A stretch of DNA of 64,000 nucleotides, from assembly GCA_014381825.1 (NCBI GenBank), contig JACNKX010000061.1:62001-126000 (forward strand). The letters run 5' to 3'. Of this stretch, positions 25,420 to 34,562 are shown piece after piece (the first letter of the stretch is position 1; every line of letters begins with the position of its first letter). A program made the position numbers and the translations under genes. The notes under the pieces were generated by a model. That model was not told the DNA's origin. It did no database searches and saw nothing but the letters and a program-made list of their open reading frames with translations. The DNA is from Planctomycetota bacterium (GTDB taxonomy: Bacteria; Planctomycetota; Planctomycetia; Pirellulales; Pirellulaceae).

Positions 25420-25839
25420 TCAGACGTGAAAAACCTTGCGTTGCTCTTCAATGTTTTCGATCTGATGCAGCTTTCCCTTACCACTGCCAGGGCAGATGTC
25501 GCAAGTCTCGGCCCACGCCTGGGGTGACTTAAGATTCGAATCCCAGAACGGCCAAGTTCGACACTGCCGCGGACGAGCGTTGTAGACGGTGCATTTACGC
25601 GTTTCATTGTCGAAGAACACACAATCGCCGTTTGGAAACTCGCGGAGACTTCGACGAATGCCGACCTTTCGAACATATTCGGCTTCAAACGCCGCGACGT
25701 TAGTTTCATTCATCTCGGCGGCAATTCCTTCGACCTCGGCCTGATTCACCCAAACATATCCCGGAGCGCCCGTGCAGCAGTTACCGCACTCCGAGCATTT
25801 GAACCGCAATCCGTCTTGGTACCAGGGCTCGTCCGCCAT
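25420..25839 (-). CDS. YkgJ-family cysteine-cluster protein
   Basis: The 139-residue product has the family cluster CSECGNCC (Cys15, 18, 21, 22), then GDCVFF, RKCTVYNARPRQCRTWPFW and a last pair CDIC. These conserved cysteines probably bind zinc or an Fe-S cluster; the function of the family is not established. It is last in the minus-strand run, 23 bases after the cysteine desulfurase gene, which makes Fe-S acquisition plausible. It converges with hemP, eight bases away. Confidence 0.85.
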   Translation of the reverse strand: MADEPWYQDGLRFKCSECGNCCTGAPGYVWVNQAEVEGIAAEMNETNVAAFEAEYVRKVGIRRSLREFPNGDCVFFDNETRKCTVYNARPRQCRTWPFWDSNLKSPQAWAETCDICPGSGKGKLHQIENIEEQRKVFHV

Positions 25840-25862
25840 CGAATTCTCTCCTTACGTCTTCG

Positions 25863-27035
25863 TTAGATAGCAGATGCTGCGATTTCGCTCACCGCTTGAA
25901 TCGCTCTGTCGACATGTTCGTGTGTGGTAAAAGCGCCGACGCTGAATCGCACCGTACCACCGCAATCACGCGTGGATAACTTCTCATGCATTAACGGTGC
26001 ACAGTGAAAGCCGCTCCTCACTTGAATTGAGTAGGCGGTGTCGAGCATTGTCGCAACTTCTTGCGGATCGTAACCCTCGATGTTGATGCTGACTACCCCC
26101 ACTCGCTGCTTGGCATCGTGCGGGCCGTAGATCGTGACGTTGTCGAGCGAAAGGAAGCCATTTAGCAGTCGCGAGGTTAGCTCTTGTTCATGTAGTGCGA
26201 TGTGTTTCACTCCGCGCTCGGTGAGATAGGTTAATGCGGCTCCCAATCCAACGATACCGGGAACGTTGTGGTTGCCGGATTCGTACTTGTCCGGCATTGT
26301 CATCGGCTGATAGTCGGTCTCGCTCAATGTCCCTGTCCCGCCTTGCCGAGTCGCGTGTAGATACGCTTCGACTCCGGGCGCGACGTAGAGGACGCCCGTT
26401 CCTAAAGGGCCGAGCAACCCTTTATGTCCCGGTGCTGCGATCAGGTGAGCGCGCAGTTCGATTGCGTTCAGCGGCACATGACCCAGCGATTGGGCTGCGT
26501 CAATCAAAAACCGAATGCCACGCGAATTGGCAATTCTTCCGATGGTCTCCGCCGGTTGGATCGCACCCGTCACGTTGGAAGCTTGTGTAAGAACAAACAG
26601 TTTTGTGTTGCTGTTGACGGCAGCCTCGAAAGCCGTCGCGTCGACGATCCCGCTCGCGCCGCATTCGACTCGAGTCACTGTGACATCACGATTCTTCTCA
26701 AGCTGCCGGAGCGGTCGTAATACCGAATTATGTTCGCACACCGTCGTGACAACATGATCGCCCGCGCGCAACAAGCCGTGCAGCGCCAAATTCAAGGAGT
26801 CCGTTCCGTTCGATGTAAAGATAATACGCTTTGAGTCTGAAACGCCGATGAGATCTGCGATTTGCTTGCGAGATTCGCTCACTAGTCGCTCGACTTCAAT
26901 CGCCTCGCCGTAAGTGCCACGGCCGGCCGGTGCCCCGTTCTTCCGCATATAGCGGTCTACCGCATCATAAACCGCCGCAGGCTTCGGCCAACTGGTCGCG
27001 GCATTGTCCAAATAGATGCGGTTGGTCGGCGGCAT
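25863..27035 (-). CDS. Cysteine desulfurase-like PLP enzyme (class V aminotransferase fold)
   Basis: The 390-residue product begins IYLDNAATSWPKPAAVYDAV, the opening of the cysteine desulfurase family. The catalytic set is present: His102 stacking on PLP, Asp179, the Schiff-base lysine Lys205 in APGHKGLLG and a candidate persulfide cysteine Cys345 in RSGFHCAPLMHE. It removes sulfur from cysteine to form a protein persulfide. It lies 33 bases after moaA in the moaD-moaE-moaA run, so it may supply the sulfur for the MoaD thiocarboxylate; this is inference from context. Other class V enzymes such as selenocysteine lyases are less likely. Confidence 0.88.
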   Translation of the reverse strand: MPPTNRIYLDNAATSWPKPAAVYDAVDRYMRKNGAPAGRGTYGEAIEVERLVSESRKQIADLIGVSDSKRIIFTSNGTDSLNLALHGLLRAGDHVVTTVCEHNSVLRPLRQLEKNRDVTVTRVECGASGIVDATAFEAAVNSNTKLFVLTQASNVTGAIQPAETIGRIANSRGIRFLIDAAQSLGHVPLNAIELRAHLIAAPGHKGLLGPLGTGVLYVAPGVEAYLHATRQGGTGTLSETDYQPMTMPDKYESGNHNVPGIVGLGAALTYLTERGVKHIALHEQELTSRLLNGFLSLDNVTIYGPHDAKQRVGVVSINIEGYDPQEVATMLDTAYSIQVRSGFHCAPLMHEKLSTRDCGGTVRFSVGAFTTHEHVDRAIQAVSEIAASAI

Positions 27036-27068
27036 AACAATACGATCAGGCAGGGGAACTTACGGTCG

Positions 27069-28070
27069 CTAGCCGCCGATTTGGTACATCGCTCGGTCGG
27101 GCCTTACGAAGTTCGGCGAATCGATGCCATGGCCAGGTTTCTTTGCGCGGATGCAGTCACGAAGCAATTCGACGAGTTGTTCGTCGCTGCCACCTCCGCG
27201 CATGATCTCCCTTGCATCCCATTCGGCGATCGAGAACAGACAGTTCCGCATCTTCCCTTCAGCCGTGATGCGAAGTCGGTTGCAAGCGTTGCAGAACGGT
27301 TGCGTCACGGGGTTAATGAAGCCGATGACACCGATACCGTCCGCGAAACGGAAGTCGCTGGCTGGCTGACTTGGATCCTTTCGTTCGATTGCTACCAGCG
27401 GGCAGAATGCTTCTTCAAGAGCTTCGCGAATCTCGCTTCCCGAAAGAACTTGATCGTCGCACCAGTTATTCTCTGCGTCGAGTGGCATGAACTCAATGAA
27501 GCGGAGTTCTAATTCGTGTTGTCTCGCGAACTCACCAAGCGGAACGATCTCTTCCTCGGTGATTCCTCGGATGGCTACGGCGTTCAGGCGGATCTTTTCG
27601 AAGCCGATTCGCTGTGCCGCGAATATGCCCTCGAGAACGCGGTCGAGTCCCTGACGTCGTGAGATTCGTTCGAACGTTTCTTCTCGAAGTCCGTCGAGAC
27701 TGATATTCAATCGCTGCAAGCCAGCTTCCTTCAAGGCGACTACATGATCGGCGAGCAATACACCATTTGTCGTCATGGCAATATCGCGGATGCCGGGGAC
27801 GGAAGCGAGTTCCCGAATCAGATTGGGCAGTTCCGCTCGAACCAAGGGCTCCCCACCGGTGATCCGCAGTTTATCGACGCCGAGTGATGCAGCAACGCGC
27901 GTGAAACGAACAATTTCCTCGAACGTTAGGATCTCGACACGAGGTTTAAACTGAACGTTTTCATTCGGCATACAGTAAAAACAGCGAATGTTGCACCGAT
28001 CAGTAACGCTGATTCGTAAGTTATTGTGGACGCGTCCAAGTGTATCGACGAGTATTCTTGAATCAGTCAT
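27069..28070 (-). CDS. moaA: GTP 3',8-cyclase (molybdenum cofactor step 1)
   Basis: MoaA is a radical-SAM enzyme that, with MoaC, turns GTP into cyclic pyranopterin monophosphate. The 333-residue product has the N-terminal SAM cluster Cys26, Cys30, Cys33 (CNIRCFYC), KLRITGGEPLVR, the second cluster CNACNRLRITAEGKMRNC and the C-terminal GG needed for activity. Its start overlaps the moaE stop (ATGA). moaC is not in the window and must lie elsewhere. Confidence 0.96.
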   Translation of the reverse strand: MTDSRILVDTLGRVHNNLRISVTDRCNIRCFYCMPNENVQFKPRVEILTFEEIVRFTRVAASLGVDKLRITGGEPLVRAELPNLIRELASVPGIRDIAMTTNGVLLADHVVALKEAGLQRLNISLDGLREETFERISRRQGLDRVLEGIFAAQRIGFEKIRLNAVAIRGITEEEIVPLGEFARQHELELRFIEFMPLDAENNWCDDQVLSGSEIREALEEAFCPLVAIERKDPSQPASDFRFADGIGVIGFINPVTQPFCNACNRLRITAEGKMRNCLFSIAEWDAREIMRGGGSDEQLVELLRDCIRAKKPGHGIDSPNFVRPDRAMYQIGG

Positions 28071-28534
28071 TCGGCTTTATCGATCGGTTGCTTTGGCGGA
28101 GACGGTCGAATCTGTGTTGTCTCAATCATGGGATGGACCCATTCAGTTGTTCCATCGGCCCAATTCTCTTGCTTCCAGATTGGCACAACCTCCTTGAGCG
28201 TGTCAATAAGCCACTTGCCAGCTTCGAACGCATCTTCGCGATGTGCGGAGCTAACTCCAATGGCAACACTTGCCTCTCCAAGCTGCAACTGTCCGATTCG
28301 ATGCACAATAGCTGTTGCGACGAGGGGCCAGCGCTCGTGAGCCTCGGCATCAAGTTCCGTAAGTTGTTTTTTGGCCATATTGGCATAGCATTCATAATTT
28401 AACGAAAGCGTCTGGCGCCCATCGGTAAACTCGCGTGTTGTGCCAAGGAACAGAACGACGGCACCGGCTTGCGTCGAACTGACTTGCCGAAGCACTTCTT
28501 GTGTGTCGATCGGTTTTTCAGTGAGCTTGATCAT
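28067..28534 (-). CDS. moaE: Molybdopterin synthase catalytic subunit
   Basis: MoaE uses thiocarboxylated MoaD to add the dithiolene sulfurs to the pterin. The 155-residue product has AGAVVLFLGTTREFTDGR, LSLNYECYANMA, HRIGQLQLGEASVAIGVSSA and PIWKQENWADGTTEWVHP, all family motifs. The ATG at 28534 (MIKLTEKPID) is preferred over an in-frame TTG four codons upstream, which lacks a ribosome-binding site. It lies between moaD and moaA. Confidence 0.95.
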   Translation of the reverse strand: MIKLTEKPIDTQEVLRQVSSTQAGAVVLFLGTTREFTDGRQTLSLNYECYANMAKKQLTELDAEAHERWPLVATAIVHRIGQLQLGEASVAIGVSSAHREDAFEAGKWLIDTLKEVVPIWKQENWADGTTEWVHPMIETTQIRPSPPKQPIDKAE

Positions 28535-28565
28535 GTTGTGGTCCAAGTCGCTGAGCGAAAAACGA

Positions 28566-28811
28566 CTAGCCGCCGGAGACCGGCGGAATGAGGGCGATCT
28601 CGGAATCTACAGGGACAGCCGCGTCGTTACGAACATACTCCGTATCGATCGCAATCATCGCTCGCTGGATGACGTCACGCAACTGAACGTGTTGGTCGCT
28701 GATCGCATCTCGGAGGACGAGAACGGTCGCATCATCGGGCAGCTCAACCGAGACCGTTTCCGAACCGGCGAGTTGTTTCGCGACGGCAAACAATTTAACT
28801 TTGACTTTCAC
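28566..28811 (-). CDS. moaD: Molybdopterin synthase sulfur carrier subunit
   Basis: The 81-residue ubiquitin-fold product ends in the obligatory Gly-Gly (PPVSGG), which is adenylated and thiocarboxylated. The N-terminal MKVKVKLFAVAKQLAGSETV and IALIPPVSGG end match MoaD. The start is GTG and overlaps the stop of the upstream FAD/Fe-S dehydrogenase gene (GTGA). moaE follows 31 bases downstream. Confidence 0.94.
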   Translation of the reverse strand: MKVKVKLFAVAKQLAGSETVSVELPDDATVLVLRDAISDQHVQLRDVIQRAMIAIDTEYVRNDAAVPVDSEIALIPPVSGG

Positions 28812-31780
28812 GTTACGATCAACTCCTCACCGCGCGTCGTAAGTAATCGACCAAGTTCCGGCATCAACCCATAGGATAGCGCTAGCAGCTTTAGCGGGTG
28901 AATCGTCGGCTTCGTCGTGCCCTGTTCCATTTGAATCTTACACGCACTGCATTCGGTCGTTCCGACTTGGATCACCGGGTCGCGGAGAGCCGAAATAACA
29001 CCCCATCCCGCGCGTAAACTGCTGCGATAGTTGTCGCGTTTCAATCCGAAGGTGCCCGCCATTCCCGAACAGCCTTTGTCGATTCGTTTCAGTGAAATTC
29101 CTGGAATAAGCCGCAGGAGGTTCTCCCCCGGAGAGCCAACATCCAACGCTCGCATGTGGCACGGCAAGTGATAGCCAACAGTCGCGTTGACTGGGCTCAA
29201 GTCGAGCTCCAAGTGGCCTGTCTGGTGCATCTTCCACAAGTAATCGCAAGCGTCAGAAATGTTCTTTGCGACAAGCCGCACGTCATCGTCGTCTACGATA
29301 TTCGGATACTCGTGGTTCAGGCACAGCGTTGCAGAAGGCTCGGTCGTAACGATGTGATATCCCTGGCGAACGGCTTCGGCTAGCAGCGGTACGTTGCGGG
29401 CCGCGTATTTCCGTGCGGTGTCGACTGCGCCCACGGAAACCGCGGACATACCTGATGGAACTTGTTTCGGCGGGACATAGACCGCGACGCCATTGTGGCG
29501 CATGATATTAACAAATGCGTTGGCCAACTCGACGTCAAACCAATTTGCATAGACGTCGACGAAGTACAAAACCTTGCGCCCTTCGAAGCGGCCTTGTCGC
29601 GTAAGTCGCTGTCGCTGGGCGTCTCGCATGAATGTTCTTGTCGCAAATTTCGGCAGCTTTCGCCCTTGCGCAATTCCGACTGTCTTTTCCATCAGCCAAC
29701 GCATGGCTCGATTGCCAAACGCCCAATTCGTCAGCGTGGCAAAACTACTGCCGATCTGACACATCCTATCGAGACGGGTAAACAGCGACTCGGTAGGCCG
29801 CAAGCCGTTCGTAGCGACGTATTGTGCTTTCGCTTCCAAGACGAGCTTTGGAATATCGACATTGGCGGGGCATTCCAGGCGACACTGATGACAATTCACA
29901 CAGAGATCCGCGACGGCCTTGAGATGTTCCTTGGATAGCTCCTCCGAATTGAGTCGGCCGGTCAGGACCGCACGAATTAAATTCGCCTTTGCCCGCGGGG
30001 AAGCCTCTTCGCGTGGGGCAAAACGAAAGATCGGACACATCCGTTCTTCGGGCGACTCGGTTCGGCAACGCCCACAGCCGTTGCATATGCGAGCTGCGAG
30101 AGCAACGTCGTCCTCTTCCCAAATGATTTGAAGCTTAACCGGTTGGAACTCTGGGAGATCCTCTGGTCCGACTGTTTCGGTTTCGGCGGCAAAGGATTCC
30201 GCAGTTGCAGCGACAACTGGCCGTAAGTTCTTGCTGGGCGGCTGCGGCGCGTCGGCAACGACCTTGCCGGGATTGAAGATGTTCTGCGGGTCGAAGATCC
30301 GCTTGACCGAACGAAAGACTTCGTACAGTTCACCGTGTTGCTTTTGAGCAAACCAAGTTCGGCTTAGGCCATCGCCATGCTCACCGCTGATTGTCCCTCC
30401 GACTTTGAGCACTTCTTCGTAGAGGTCTTGTGCAAGACCTTGCATCTTTCGAATGTCGTCCGGATTCGCAAGATCGAGGAACGGTCGAATATGCAACTGA
30501 CCATGTACGGCGTGTGCAAATAAAGTAGCAGTGACTTGATGCGCCTTCTGAACATTCTGGATCGTGACCAAGAAGTCGGGGAGCACATGCGGAGGGATCG
30601 CGATGTCTTCGACGAGCGGGATCGGACGGGTCGAGCCGCGTAGGCGATGCAGACGCGGAACAACTCGCCGCGCTAAATGCCAGTAGAGGTCGCGTTCTTC
30701 TTTATCCATCGTCATGCGCGAATCGAAGGCGAGCCGCTTGCGACGCTGGACACGGTTGATCACTTGCTTCAATCGTTCTCGTAACTCGTTCGCATCGTCC
30801 CCACACTGCTCGACTAATAACATCGCTTCCGCATCGCGTGGAATGATTAAATCAAAGCGGACATCGACTTCGCGTGAAATCGTCAGCAACCGCCGATCCA
30901 TCAAATCACAAGCACTCACGCCCATCGTCGAAAGCAGCAGTGCCGCTTGCGCCGCGTTCTCCAAACGGTCAAAGAACAGCAAGACGACACCGCGGTGCTT
31001 GGGCCTCGGATCGATGCGAACGGTGGCCTCAGTAATTAAGCCGAGCGTCCCTTCGGAACCAACGATCAAGTCGGCGAGACGGAGTTGATCGTCTTGTAAG
31101 ACGTCGTAGACGTGGTAGCCCGAGCGATTCACAAAGGACTTAGGCTGTCCCCGCGTAATCTCGTCTTGATGACGCTGAAACAAATCGACGAGTCGCCGGA
31201 CGATTTCACCGCGTCGCGAGTCTGCATCCGGTTTGTTGATCGGAATGTTCTCGGCTTCAATCACAGAACCATCGGCGAGGACCACCTGCATACGCTCGAC
31301 GCGTCCGCGAGCCGATCCGTACTGCGGCCAATGGCTCCCGCTACCATCGAGCGCTAAGACGCTTCCCATCGTTGTCACACTTCTTGTGGCAGGATCGGGG
31401 CCGAATAGCCGTCCATACGGATAAAGCGCTCGGTTGAGTTGGGCATGAACGATACCCGGTTGGATGCGAATGCGGTCGTCACTGACTTCAAGAACTCGCC
31501 GCATGTAGTACGAGAAATCGAGTACCAATCCGGTGCCGAGCGACTCGCCGGCAACACCCGTTCCCGCGCCGCGGGCATGAATGGGCAGTTCGTTCTCGGC
31601 GGCGTATTGAACGCACGCGACGACGTCCGACAACCCACGAGGACGCACAACGCCCAGCGGGCGGATCTCGTAGATGCTTGCGTCGCTCGCATACATCTGG
31701 ACGAAGACATCGTCACAGCGGACGTCGCCATCGATCAAGCCACGAAGATCAGCCTGAATGCGTTCGCGTTCCTTGTCCAT
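28808..31780 (-). CDS. FAD-linked oxidase / Fe-S reductase fusion (YdiJ/GlcD-GlcF type)
   Basis: The 990-residue product joins a VAO-type FAD domain (about 35-480, with HARGAGTGVAGESLGTG and VTTMGSVLALDGSGS), two 4Fe-4S motifs (CNGCGRCRTE at about 560 and CVNCHQCRLECP at about 624) and C-terminal CCG modules (LPCHMRALDVG, CSGMAGTFG and ECSACKIQME). Relatives oxidise D-2-hydroxy acids such as D-lactate, glycolate or D-2-hydroxyglutarate, passing electrons to the respiratory chain. The exact substrate is unknown. Overlap with moaD and tight spacing to the upstream zinc-ribbon gene (12 bases) place it inside the pterin/molybdopterin operon, although it is not itself a molybdoenzyme. Confidence 0.92.
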   Translation of the reverse strand: MDKERERIQADLRGLIDGDVRCDDVFVQMYASDASIYEIRPLGVVRPRGLSDVVACVQYAAENELPIHARGAGTGVAGESLGTGLVLDFSYYMRRVLEVSDDRIRIQPGIVHAQLNRALYPYGRLFGPDPATRSVTTMGSVLALDGSGSHWPQYGSARGRVERMQVVLADGSVIEAENIPINKPDADSRRGEIVRRLVDLFQRHQDEITRGQPKSFVNRSGYHVYDVLQDDQLRLADLIVGSEGTLGLITEATVRIDPRPKHRGVVLLFFDRLENAAQAALLLSTMGVSACDLMDRRLLTISREVDVRFDLIIPRDAEAMLLVEQCGDDANELRERLKQVINRVQRRKRLAFDSRMTMDKEERDLYWHLARRVVPRLHRLRGSTRPIPLVEDIAIPPHVLPDFLVTIQNVQKAHQVTATLFAHAVHGQLHIRPFLDLANPDDIRKMQGLAQDLYEEVLKVGGTISGEHGDGLSRTWFAQKQHGELYEVFRSVKRIFDPQNIFNPGKVVADAPQPPSKNLRPVVAATAESFAAETETVGPEDLPEFQPVKLQIIWEEDDVALAARICNGCGRCRTESPEERMCPIFRFAPREEASPRAKANLIRAVLTGRLNSEELSKEHLKAVADLCVNCHQCRLECPANVDIPKLVLEAKAQYVATNGLRPTESLFTRLDRMCQIGSSFATLTNWAFGNRAMRWLMEKTVGIAQGRKLPKFATRTFMRDAQRQRLTRQGRFEGRKVLYFVDVYANWFDVELANAFVNIMRHNGVAVYVPPKQVPSGMSAVSVGAVDTARKYAARNVPLLAEAVRQGYHIVTTEPSATLCLNHEYPNIVDDDDVRLVAKNISDACDYLWKMHQTGHLELDLSPVNATVGYHLPCHMRALDVGSPGENLLRLIPGISLKRIDKGCSGMAGTFGLKRDNYRSSLRAGWGVISALRDPVIQVGTTECSACKIQMEQGTTKPTIHPLKLLALSYGLMPELGRLLTTRGEELIVT

Positions 31781-31792
31781 GAGCGCCCTAAA

Positions 31793-32269
31793 CTACCCCT
31801 TTGAGTGGACCGCTTGGCTCTCGGCAAGACGAATCGCTTGCTGGCGATACTTCTCATGCGTTTCAAGGCTAAACGCTGCGTGATCGTCCAAATGCGGAAG
31901 ACCGCGATATTCGGTGCTGCATCGATAGCATTGCAGCAAGTTGCCGACTGTGAAATACAAGTATAAGTCTAGCAGTGCAGCAGCGAATAGAATTCCGTAC
32001 GCCGTGTACCACATGTAATACGCCCAAGCGATTGCGCTCGCGGTAGCTGCGACGACGACTACGAACACGCCAATCCGCTGTGAGAAGTTCTTCCGAATGA
32101 ACAACTCTTTACAGCCGCAGACCAAACACTCGTCCAAGGCGTCCTCTCGTGGAGCCTCAGCCGAAGTCGTTTGCTTCCAATCGCATTCGGGACACGTGAC
32201 AGCAGTTTCCAGCGCGAGCGGGATACGGCTCGTGTGATCACACTCGGGACACGCAAAAGTAATGTTCAT
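31793..32269 (-). CDS. Zinc-ribbon membrane protein of unknown function
   Basis: The 158-residue product has four cysteine clusters: C7/C10, C26/C29, C48/C51/C53 and C114/C117, consistent with one or two zinc ribbons, and two membrane helices at about 66-86 and 90-108 lying before the last pair. No family is recognised. The frame is open up to 32593, but that part lies in the upstream membrane-protein gene; the ATG at 32269 starts directly with the first zinc motif (MNITFACPECDH). It sits between the eight-helix membrane protein and the FAD/Fe-S dehydrogenase with short gaps, so it may act with them. Confidence 0.8.
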   Translation of the reverse strand: MNITFACPECDHTSRIPLALETAVTCPECDWKQTTSAEAPREDALDECLVCGCKELFIRKNFSQRIGVFVVVVAATASAIAWAYYMWYTAYGILFAAALLDLYLYFTVGNLLQCYRCSTEYRGLPHLDDHAAFSLETHEKYRQQAIRLAESQAVHSKG

Positions 32270-32316
32270 CGATCGTTTTACTGCACCGTGCAACCTACTC
32301 GGAAACCCAACTTCCA

Positions 32317-33108
32317 TCATAAGGGATAGAGGTAGTCGACCGACAGTAGCAGCGAGGTTAGTTCGCCCAGGAATGCAAGAATAACGCCTGCGTAAAGGAT
32401 GCCGGTGGCGCTCTGTGTGTTGGGGACCTTTAACGTGTACCAAGTCATCAGCGAGAGCGTGAACGTGCCCAGCAGTCCCGACAGCCAGCGGAAGGTCACA
32501 AAGATCCAAAACACCGTATCGAGAGGCTGTGCCGATGTCGCTTGCATTGCCAGCCCTGTACCGCTGACAAAAGTTCGAGCCACGATTGCACACGCCATGA
32601 GGATCACAAGCCGCTTTAACGGCAGTAACTCCATTGTCGGTGTATTCAGGTACCAGTGTCCAAGAAACATCGCGGACAACGTGACACCCATCAGCAAGCC
32701 GCTCGAGCCAAGATCCAGCATCGCGAGGGTGATACCGAGCGATGTCTTCGTGCCAGCCCAGGGCGTTGCAAACGCGGCGGCTATAAGTGCGCCCGTCGCA
32801 ACGAGGACAATTACCGCAGTTCCCAAATCTGTCTTCTCATAGAGCCAGATTACCGATCCAACGTAGCAGAGGACTCCCAGAGCAATGGCCAGTCCAAGCG
32901 GTATTCGCCAGTTCGTGAGTACACCGGCGAGAGCTTCCGTCTGTGAATAGACAGCGAGCGCCGCGAATGTATTGAGCCCCATTAAGACCCAAAGATGGAC
33001 GCGATAGAAGCCGCTCGATACGTGCTTGGGCGGCGTGATCGCCATGGCGAGGGCAACGCCGAACGTCAGTCGAAAGACGAATTGTATCAGCAGTTGCGAG
33101 AATCCCAC
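32317..33108 (-). CDS. Polytopic membrane protein of unknown function
   Basis: The 263-residue product is almost wholly hydrophobic, with about eight predicted helices and short loops. Points that may matter are HVSSGFYRVHLWVLMGLN near residue 30 and a central GHWYLNTPTMELLPLKRL (about 150-167), where buried His, Trp and Tyr suggest a functional site. No family is recognised with confidence. It begins six bases after the folE stop and precedes the zinc-ribbon protein, so the three are probably one transcript. Confidence 0.82.
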   Translation of the reverse strand: MGFSQLLIQFVFRLTFGVALAMAITPPKHVSSGFYRVHLWVLMGLNTFAALAVYSQTEALAGVLTNWRIPLGLAIALGVLCYVGSVIWLYEKTDLGTAVIVLVATGALIAAAFATPWAGTKTSLGITLAMLDLGSSGLLMGVTLSAMFLGHWYLNTPTMELLPLKRLVILMACAIVARTFVSGTGLAMQATSAQPLDTVFWIFVTFRWLSGLLGTFTLSLMTWYTLKVPNTQSATGILYAGVILAFLGELTSLLLSVDYLYPL

Positions 33109-33114
33109 GCGTGC

Positions 33115-33774
33115 CTACCGCCTGTTGCCGTAAATGAGTTGCATGACTTCGGCACGCGACGACGAGTTCGTGCGGAACAGCCCTTTCATCGCCGACGTCA
33201 CGCACAAGCTGCCCGGTTTTCTTACGCCGCGCATCGTCATGCATGAGTGAGTCGCTTCCACAACAACGCCGACTCCTTTCGCGTCAAGTTCGCTTTCCAT
33301 CAAGCTTGCGATCTCTTCTGTCATACGTTCTTGCACTTGCGGGCGATGCGAAACGCTTTCGACAACACGAGCCAACTTGCTCAGACCGAGAACTCTGCCG
33401 TTCGGGATGTAGCCGATATGAGCTTTGCCCATGAAGGGCAAGAGGTGGTGTTCGCACATGCTGTTGAAGCTGATGTCACGTACCACAACGACCTCGTCGT
33501 ACTTCTCGGTGAACACCTTCTTTAAGTGAACGCGCGGGTCGTCATGCAAGCCGCTGAACAGTTCGGCGTACATCCTCGCCACGCGAGCCGGTGTCTCAAG
33601 CAGGCCTTCTCGATCTGGATCCTCGCCTACCGCGAACAAGATCTCGCGGACGGCATTTTGCAGTCGCTGCATATCGACCGGTGAAGTTGGTGCACTACTG
33701 GGACAGCCAGGTTGGTCGTCGCTCTCTCCATCGATAGTGCCTATTTCCGCCTTCGTCATTTCGCTGTCTGGCAT
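33115..33774 (-). CDS. folE: GTP cyclohydrolase I
   Basis: FolE converts GTP to 7,8-dihydroneopterin triphosphate, the first step to folate and tetrahydrobiopterin and also to queuosine. The 219-residue product has zinc ligands Cys107 and His110 in [18 protein letters not shown] and Cys178 in [10 protein letters not shown], plus [14 protein letters not shown]. The ATG at 33774 has GAAGG upstream; the open frame beyond it has no support. It is the first gene of the compact run that leads to moaD-moaE-moaA. Confidence 0.95.
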
Positions 33775-33917: not shown

Positions 33918-34562
33918 TCAGTCGCCTGGCGAGTTCGCATTACGAATATCGCTCGAAGAAATATCGTGGCGAAACACTTCCTCGCTCACCTCGCAACAAA
34001 TCATTCGTAGCGGCCCAGGGAGATCTAGGTGACTGAGTGTTTGAAAACCGTCACTCGTCGTCCGACCGAACACGAGGAACTGCGCACCGGCATCGGCGAT
34101 TGTCTCCAGTGCCCGATCGCGTCGTGACACCTCGTCACGGTAGTAACTCACTTCTGCGATTCGTAAGATAGTATCCACGCCAACGACGAATCGCACGCCA
34201 CCGAATAGCTCCACTTTCTGAACAAAGGTCGCTGTGCGAGTGATCCAGACATTGCGGCAATTCTCAAATTGCGAAAGCCTTCGTTCAATCGACGCGAAGT
34301 CTAACGAAGCTTTGTCGACGTTCTGAACAGAAAGCTCGAAGTCGACCGGAGTACCATAGACTTCTTCGGCCAGCTTCGCGATCTGGTGATGGCCGTCATG
34401 GAGCGGATTGAAGGCTCCTGGGAAGAGCAACGACGTAGCGGGTCTATCCTGAAAACTCGCAGTACCGCGAACCAGTACCGCCCCACGTTCGCCTTGATGC
34501 AATCGCTCGATGGCCGCTTGGAGATCAAGTCTTGATTCACCCGAACTCTCTCTAGTCGTCAT
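33918..34562 (-). CDS. Nucleotidyltransferase of the NadD/NMNAT type
   Basis: The 214-residue product has the nucleotidyltransferase signature FPGAFNPLHDGHHQIA (about residues 47-62) and the C-terminal ISSSDIRN, equivalent to the ISSTxIR motif. Together these fit NMN/NaMN or pantetheine-phosphate type adenylyltransferases. The adjacent NMN amidase gene, overlapping by 11 bases, makes NaMN adenylyltransferase the best guess. An N-terminal extension of about 45 residues precedes the fold. The substrate is not proven by sequence. Confidence 0.78.
   Translation of the reverse strand: MTTRESSGESRLDLQAAIERLHQGERGAVLVRGTASFQDRPATSLLFPGAFNPLHDGHHQIAKLAEEVYGTPVDFELSVQNVDKASLDFASIERRLSQFENCRNVWITRTATFVQKVELFGGVRFVVGVDTILRIAEVSYYRDEVSRRDRALETIADAGAQFLVFGRTTSDGFQTLSHLDLPGPLRMICCEVSEEVFRHDISSSDIRNANSPGD

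Follow-up and report, generated by a model that had tools for sequence, protein, structure and literature searches.

In a window of 64,000 nucleotides (the whole stretch analysed here) from a Planctomycetota bacterium (GenBank assembly GCA_014381825.1, contig JACNKX010000061.1, positions 62,001 to 126,000 of the forward strand), nine open reading frames (ORFs) follow one another on the minus strand at 25420-33774, in the order folE-mem8-znr-glcDF-moaD-moaE-moaA-csd-ykgJ. Seven of the nine belong to named Pfam or NCBIfam families. The two that do not are mem8 (32317..33108), an eight-helix membrane protein of 263 residues with a GTG start, and znr (31793..32269), a membrane protein of 158 residues carrying two Cys4 ribbons, as judged from alignment and model. 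We tentatively read the run as a conserved planctomycete operon, in which pterin and molybdopterin genes and a dehydrogenase (glcDF) surround mem8-znr, the pair itself being perhaps a small redox or metal unit of the membrane that would link the quinone pool to a partner of reduced-pterin metabolism. What is new is the mem8-znr pair, whose members are present or absent together, and not a nine-part module.

We examined 148 genomes of the order and found both mem8 and znr in 58 of them and neither in 89; one genome carries remnants of both (G020; G, L and f are our labels for genomes, loci and families) and none carries either gene alone. For znr, presence was called at E < 1e-40, 32 further genomes that match the first ribbon only, at 20-27 bits, being scored as absent; G020 was not scored as present, and damaged copies were (mem8 broken over frames in G023, one internal stop in mem8 of G201 and G230 and in znr of G247). 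In this order, mem8-znr is a separate two-gene unit inside the run, present or absent as a whole. The pair is split over different contigs in 7 of the 58 genomes and, in six of these (G037, G033, G195, G204, G202, and G193), mem8 adjoins folE and znr adjoins glcDF. Some loci deserve mention in their own right. In G020 (L265:8741-9148), mem8 and znr are reduced to their ends, both decayed and lying side by side directly before a whole glcDF; G224 and G235, of the same genus, retain both genes. In G023 (L055:9508-10283), mem8 is fragmented into several frames and has an internal stop, by pseudogenization or assembly error, and a whole znr is found about 3 kb away. In G021, folE-mem8 (L035) stands apart from glcDF-moaD (L269), and znr was seen at neither of these two places, the rest of the genome lying outside that search.

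The pair is also found outside the window's own class. A mem8 match was obtained in 39 of 148 genomes sampled over the phylum, and 31 of these 39 are outside the class and come from 17 families; a search in plasmids gave no match. In 27 of the 31 outside loci, the distance from mem8 to znr is 1.4 kb or less. Among the other four, the contig ends at mem8 in one (L293), and znr was not seen near mem8 in L172, L182, and L286. In 4 of the 17 families, folE or moa genes stand at most 7 kb from the pair, in arrangements unlike that of the window: family f34 shows PTPS-folE-SDR on one side of znr-mem8 and moaD-moaE on the other; f63 shows mem8-znr-queG followed by moaA in both of its genomes; f67 shows mem8-znr-LON-TatD-folE; and f39 shows PTPS in 4/4 genomes, with folE also in G184 and, as a short match, in G061. 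The names PTPS, SDR, QueG, LON, and TatD come from scans of one or a few proteins each, and the three PTPS proteins scanned reach the cut-off of neither PTPS/QueD model. The count of four families takes in folE and moa genes alone, PTPS and queG having been picked after they were seen; the 7 kb limit is our own choice, and a further family (L186) with folE and PTPS about 8 kb away is not counted. A rough binomial estimate puts the chance of such a recurrence at 0.0003-0.009, assuming 6-15 such genes per 4.5 Mb genome and treating families as independent. This recurrence supports a tie of the pair to pterins, though 13 of the 17 families have no such gene nearby. The earlier note on this DNA had suggested a pterin-linked redox module made of all nine genes; a pterin link finds support for mem8-znr, and the single nine-part module does not.

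Both loci of family f26, L172:6888-8101 (G084) and L286:9025-10937 (G047), have a Rieske 2Fe-2S gene placed after an argininosuccinate synthase gene and before mem8, on the strand of mem8. It overlaps mem8 by 4 bases in L172 and is about 590 bases away in L286, its identity resting on a Pfam match in the first case and on motif and inspection by eye in the second. With znr not seen near mem8 at either locus (the remainder of the f26 genomes was not searched for znr), the position of this Rieske gene hints at an electron-carrying partner of mem8. As a separate observation, a protein resembling the LON substrate-binding domain is encoded about 1.4 kb or less from mem8 in six loci, upstream in L179 and downstream in L171, L177, L294, L297, and L299, Pfam having been run on L294 only. 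The clustering of recurrent neighbours gave antisense artefacts alongside real families.

The gene order around the pair is conserved well beyond close relatives. Our set of relatives comprises 40 genomes, own genome included, 27 of which carry mem8; the other 26 mem8 loci were read by tblastn, and the full run, in its order, is seen in six of them (L031, L034, L040, L043, L046, and L050), the rest being partial or at contig ends. We also read the best 80 of 263 mem8 relatives (the named loci, of limited length and partly the same as the loci of the G genomes, e.g., L057 and L032) and found the complete nine-gene order, on one strand, in 15 of them (L059, L062, L067, L081, L086, L091, L092, L093, L099, L100, L101, L113, L125, L134, and L136). 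The order is shared by many genera and families whose mem8 proteins are mostly 30-60% identical, so the arrangement goes beyond chance. The earlier note would have counted an order limited to close relatives as a refutation, and it passes this test of its own. When loci with short flanks are excluded from each denominator, folE (its end within 600 bases) lies upstream of mem8 in 53/72 named loci and znr (its start within 500 bases) downstream in 64/72; further downstream, counting genes on the mem8 strand only and inverted copies as misses, come glcDF (52/60), moaD (46/58), moaE (38/57), and moaA (35/52). With csd in 14/48 and ykgJ in 15/48, the tail of the run is therefore much less constant than its front. 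Of the named isolates, Bythopirellula polymerisocia Pla144 (L086) carries all nine genes, as does Adhaeretor mobilis HG15A2 (L099), and Lacipirellula limnantheis I41 (L128) carries folE through moaA. In L089 (5936-9030), moaE, moaA, csd, and ykgJ stand in inverted orientation upstream of folE, the order folE-mem8-znr-glcDF-moaD being intact. At the other end, queries from upstream of folE in the window (nadD-like at 33918-34562, cinA, two more genes to 36495, and pfkB) had no match in the 26 relatives' loci, some of which offer little upstream sequence; hence, the conserved block most likely starts at folE.

The nine genes do not stay together as one module, as the earlier note had it. Indeed, glcDF and moaC are both found in 40/40 relatives and mem8 in 27/40 only. 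Of the 13 relatives that gave no mem8, G001 and G024 are undecided, their glcDF contig starting inside glcDF. We read the glcDF region in 12 mem8-less genomes, two of which have no sequence (L268) or only 462 bases (L264) upstream; the remaining ten contain no whole mem8 or znr there, moaD still follows glcDF in eight of these ten, and folE immediately precedes glcDF in three mem8-less regions (L258, L263, and L267). Outside the class, a glcDF relative (E ≤ 1e-60, at most five candidates scored per genome) was found in only 4 of the 31 mem8 genomes (G041, G047, G084, and G133). Therefore, mem8-znr is independent of glcDF, which is not its dedicated partner. The earlier note had listed the dehydrogenase with the two membrane proteins as parts without a role; that portion now comes down to the pair. 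These same counts bear on the proposal that mem8 would be the dedicated quinone anchor of glcDF. The closeness of the two genes in the named loci, the fact that znr remains with glcDF when the cluster splits, and the quinone-type fold of mem8 all suit an anchor, whereas the presence of glcDF in every relative, with or without mem8, and its rarity in the mem8 genomes of other classes do not, and we hold this proposal to be very unlikely.

The persistence of folE, glcDF, and the moa genes where the pair is gone also fits a housekeeping neighbourhood, that is, an order kept by shared regulation or inheritance, with no functional tie between the pair and pterins. The presence of moaC and glcDF in all 40 relatives and the 13 outside families without a pterin gene near the pair are in keeping with such a neighbourhood. 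On the other side, folE or moa genes are again close to the pair in four other families, in different arrangements, and mem8 keeps folE beside it in six of the seven genomes where the pair lies on different contigs. We rate this explanation and the pterin-linked redox unit as about equal, each being possible rather than probable.

The reading of mem8-znr as a redox unit draws in part on the predicted structures. The mem8 model (pLDDT 93.0, pTM 0.91) consists of eight long helices. A Foldseek search with it gave no match at E ≤ 0.001. In the VIA-align ranking, CydA chains come first (Z 17.7-20.1), NrfD-type subunits next (15.2-17.0), and unrelated bundles from 13.3 down; for helical bundles, a Z of up to about 13 may be due to chance. 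The 16 best rows are all CydA and NrfD-type respiratory subunits, and the best, 5doq_A (CydA), aligns 260 of the 263 mem8 residues with a Z of 20.1 and a root-mean-square deviation of 3.4. The model thus suggests a CydA/NrfD fold for mem8, as known from membrane proteins that react with quinones. Ten residues are invariant in 111/111 mem8 proteins (G17, G141, M147, G150, H151, L154, A234, T235, G236, and G248), and R207 (105/111) and E249 (98/111) nearly so, in a count that leaves out L293, L294, L295, and proteins outside 200-340 residues. Positively charged residues are most abundant in the loops that connect helices 1-2, 3-4, and 7-8; that face of mem8, with H151 and the PNTQxATG motifs, is therefore most likely cytoplasmic, as far as loop charge can tell. 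As for znr, the model (pLDDT 87.7) predicts two Cys4 ribbons and a two-helix hairpin. Its second site (C48/C51/C114/C117), invariant in 48/48 sequences, is split in the model by this membrane hairpin, and the first is retained in 44-46/48. These sites are predicted to hold zinc, or iron as in rubredoxin.

On this basis, the pair could work as follows. The conserved His/Met and PNTQxATG motifs of mem8 would face the cytoplasm and dock znr, whose two cytoplasmic Cys4 sites would sit against the mem8 pocket. The pair would then let the quinone pool exchange electrons with a partner in the cytoplasm that belongs to reduced-pterin metabolism, znr acting as a docking or electron-carrying subunit. 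The CydA/NrfD-type fold speaks for the exchange with quinones, and the link with folE, PTPS, and moa genes for the role in reduced pterins; the parts of this explanation that we trust least are the redox step and its substrate. A bolder version would make mem8-znr a new two-protein redox system operating across Planctomycetota, in which a minimal, heme-free relative of the bd/NrfD fold and a rubredoxin-like site split by a membrane hairpin (replaced by the Rieske protein in one family) would connect the quinone pool with reduced pterins or molybdopterin precursors; we think it quite unlikely in this complete form. Alternatively, mem8-znr might carry pterins or their precursors through the membrane, or sense them. 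A membrane protein encoded near folE, PTPS, SDR, queG, and moa genes, with its conserved motifs on a charged, probably cytoplasmic face, could do so, but the best structural rows being without exception respiratory subunits make us consider this unlikely.

Several observations weigh against mem8-znr being a pterin-linked redox unit. In 13 of the 17 families outside the class, some with short contigs, no folE, moa, or PTPS gene lies within 7 kb of the pair, and the neighbours there include genes for LON-domain proteins, a sigma factor, and a DNA polymerase X-like protein (the last named by eye). Inside the order, the seventh split case (G032) has mem8 on a contig of 3.7 kb that lacks folE, and in G227 mem8 is relocated behind moaA, no folE being present within the 19 kb read. 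The Rieske gene of f26 may belong with the preceding argininosuccinate synthase gene. In mem8 itself, loop 5-6, beside the invariant His, shows no excess of positive charge, and this single invariant His is in the second helix bundle. More generally, the conserved residues of mem8 are in the second bundle, whereas section 7 of PMC8076601 places the quinone site of NrfD in the first. Profile comparison by hhalign of mem8 with 13 CydA and 15 NrfD rows (one of the latter a fragment of 42 residues) gave probabilities under 1% (0.2% for CydA); this null result says little, since the control comparison of NrfD with CydA also gave only 0.1% though both head the fold list. Finally, a fold search with znr returned nothing better than E 0.67, and znr could simply be a zinc ribbon.

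The remaining genes of the run, all on the minus strand, are as follows. Upstream of mem8, folE (33115..33774) encodes a GTP cyclohydrolase I of 219 residues (PF01227, 8.3e-78; TIGR00063, 243 bits for a cut-off of 181.6). Downstream of znr, glcDF (28808..31780) encodes a 990-residue fusion of a GlcD/YdiJ-type flavin adenine dinucleotide (FAD) part and a GlpC-type Fe-S/CCG part (PF02913, PF01565, PF13534, and PF02754). The sulfur carrier encoded by moaD (28566..28811) matches PF02597, ends in SGG with the C-terminal Gly-Gly, and scores 59.8 bits against TIGR01682, just below the cut-off of 66.15. For moaE (28067..28534), the molybdopterin synthase large subunit, PF02391 matches at 2.1e-39 and the PRK10678 equivalog remains below its cut-off (99.8 vs 175). 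The GTP 3',8-cyclase gene moaA (27069..28070) reaches 378 bits against TIGR02666 (cut-off 284). MoaA, MoaD, and MoaE all exceed their Pfam cut-offs and moaC is present elsewhere in the genome, which supplies the gene set by which molybdenum cofactor biosynthesis is recognised. The last two genes are csd (25863..27035), for a cysteine desulfurase family protein of the EF2568 type with an HCAP motif that includes the Cys (TIGR01977, 428 bits, cut-off 377), and ykgJ (25420..25839), for a YkgJ-like CxxCxxCC protein (PF03692, 1.9e-13; no NCBIfam model). The ORF coordinates confirm the compact one-strand layout described earlier: gaps are of 6 bases (folE-mem8), 47 (mem8-znr, the largest), 12 (znr-glcDF), 31 (moaD-moaE, taking the ATG at 28534 as the moaE start), 33 (moaA-csd), and 23 (csd-ykgJ), with 4-base overlaps at glcDF/moaD and moaE/moaA. 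Between 25200 and 34000, promoter-like sites are at the level of shuffled sequences (4 found vs a mean of 3.7) and terminator-like sites are below it (3 vs 10.0); a single transcript for the nine genes is thus a prediction.

Should mem8-znr act on pterins, it would represent a membrane step in cofactor metabolism for which we found no description: a literature search for the cluster or the pair, by title and start of abstract and with incomplete coverage of subscription journals, gave none among the matches listed. Even otherwise, mem8-znr is a two-gene target present in named strains, and its mem8 occurs across the phylum (39/148 genomes), belongs to no named family, is accompanied by znr in all 58 order genomes that carry it, and has the predicted fold of quinone-reactive respiratory subunits.

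Among known systems, CydA (PF01654) is the closest to mem8 in predicted structure, the fold being shared over the whole length of mem8. Unlike the 13 CydA rows, which measure 421-521 residues, mem8 has 263 residues and no detectable sequence similarity to them; no CydB-like partner is encoded in the run, where the neighbours of mem8 are folE and znr. An assignment of mem8 to CydA or NrfD by sequence was rejected, Pfam, PDB, and profile comparison all being without match: the family search returned sub-threshold hits only, no PDB sequence matched, and PF01654 gave no match in 22 mem8 members at E ≤ 1 and none at the window locus in its own genome at E ≤ 0.1. Cytochrome bd binds its hemes through two His, a Met, and a Glu. 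In mem8, the candidate ligands are the sole invariant His (H151), M147, and, in most members, E249, a comparison made without residue-level structural alignment; with a single invariant His, the bd heme-ligand set therefore does not seem to be present. This bears on the idea that mem8 is a degenerate cytochrome bd subunit standing in for CydA as an oxidase. Its best structural match is CydA, and the two weakly avoid each other: in the 148 genomes of the order, mem8 and full-length CydA are found together in 10, mem8 only in 48, CydA only in 32, and neither in 58 (odds ratio 0.38, p=0.016, not corrected for kinship). This table leaves out the partial or weak CydA matches of 19 genomes, with which the counts become 14/44/47/43 (p=0.001). 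A strict replacement, perfect in the first 30 relatives (six genomes above the CydA cut-off, all without mem8), was abandoned when the 148 genomes weakened it to this odds ratio. Ten genomes with both proteins (mem8 being broken in one, G023), the lack of detected sequence homology, the missing CydB-like partner, and the seeming absence of the bd heme-ligand set make a stand-in oxidase extremely improbable.

NrfD-like subunits (PF03916; PsrC, ActC, and ActF) share the eight-helix fold of mem8 (Z 15.2-17.0) and are described in PMC8076601 as interacting with quinones while holding no redox cofactor. They differ by the absence of detected sequence similarity (PF03916 did not match mem8, and the NrfD match of the same genome lies on another contig) and by their partner, since the constant partner of mem8 is the Cys4 ribbon protein znr and not a 4Fe-4S ferredoxin-type subunit. 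As in dehydrogenases of the YdiJ/GlpC type, glcDF combines an FAD part and an Fe-S/CCG part in a single chain, and its C-terminal part passes the GlpC model PRK11168 (293 bits, cut-off 278); it is under the cut-off of TIGR03379 (214 bits vs 279.9) and far under that of the YdiJ equivalog NF049975 (417 vs 1350 bits), and its identification as the D-2-hydroxyglutarate dehydrogenase YdiJ was rejected. Lastly, as in moa molybdopterin operons, moaA, moaD, and moaE are adjacent in the window's run; unlike them, the run has its moaC elsewhere in the genome and adds folE, the dehydrogenase, and the mem8-znr pair.

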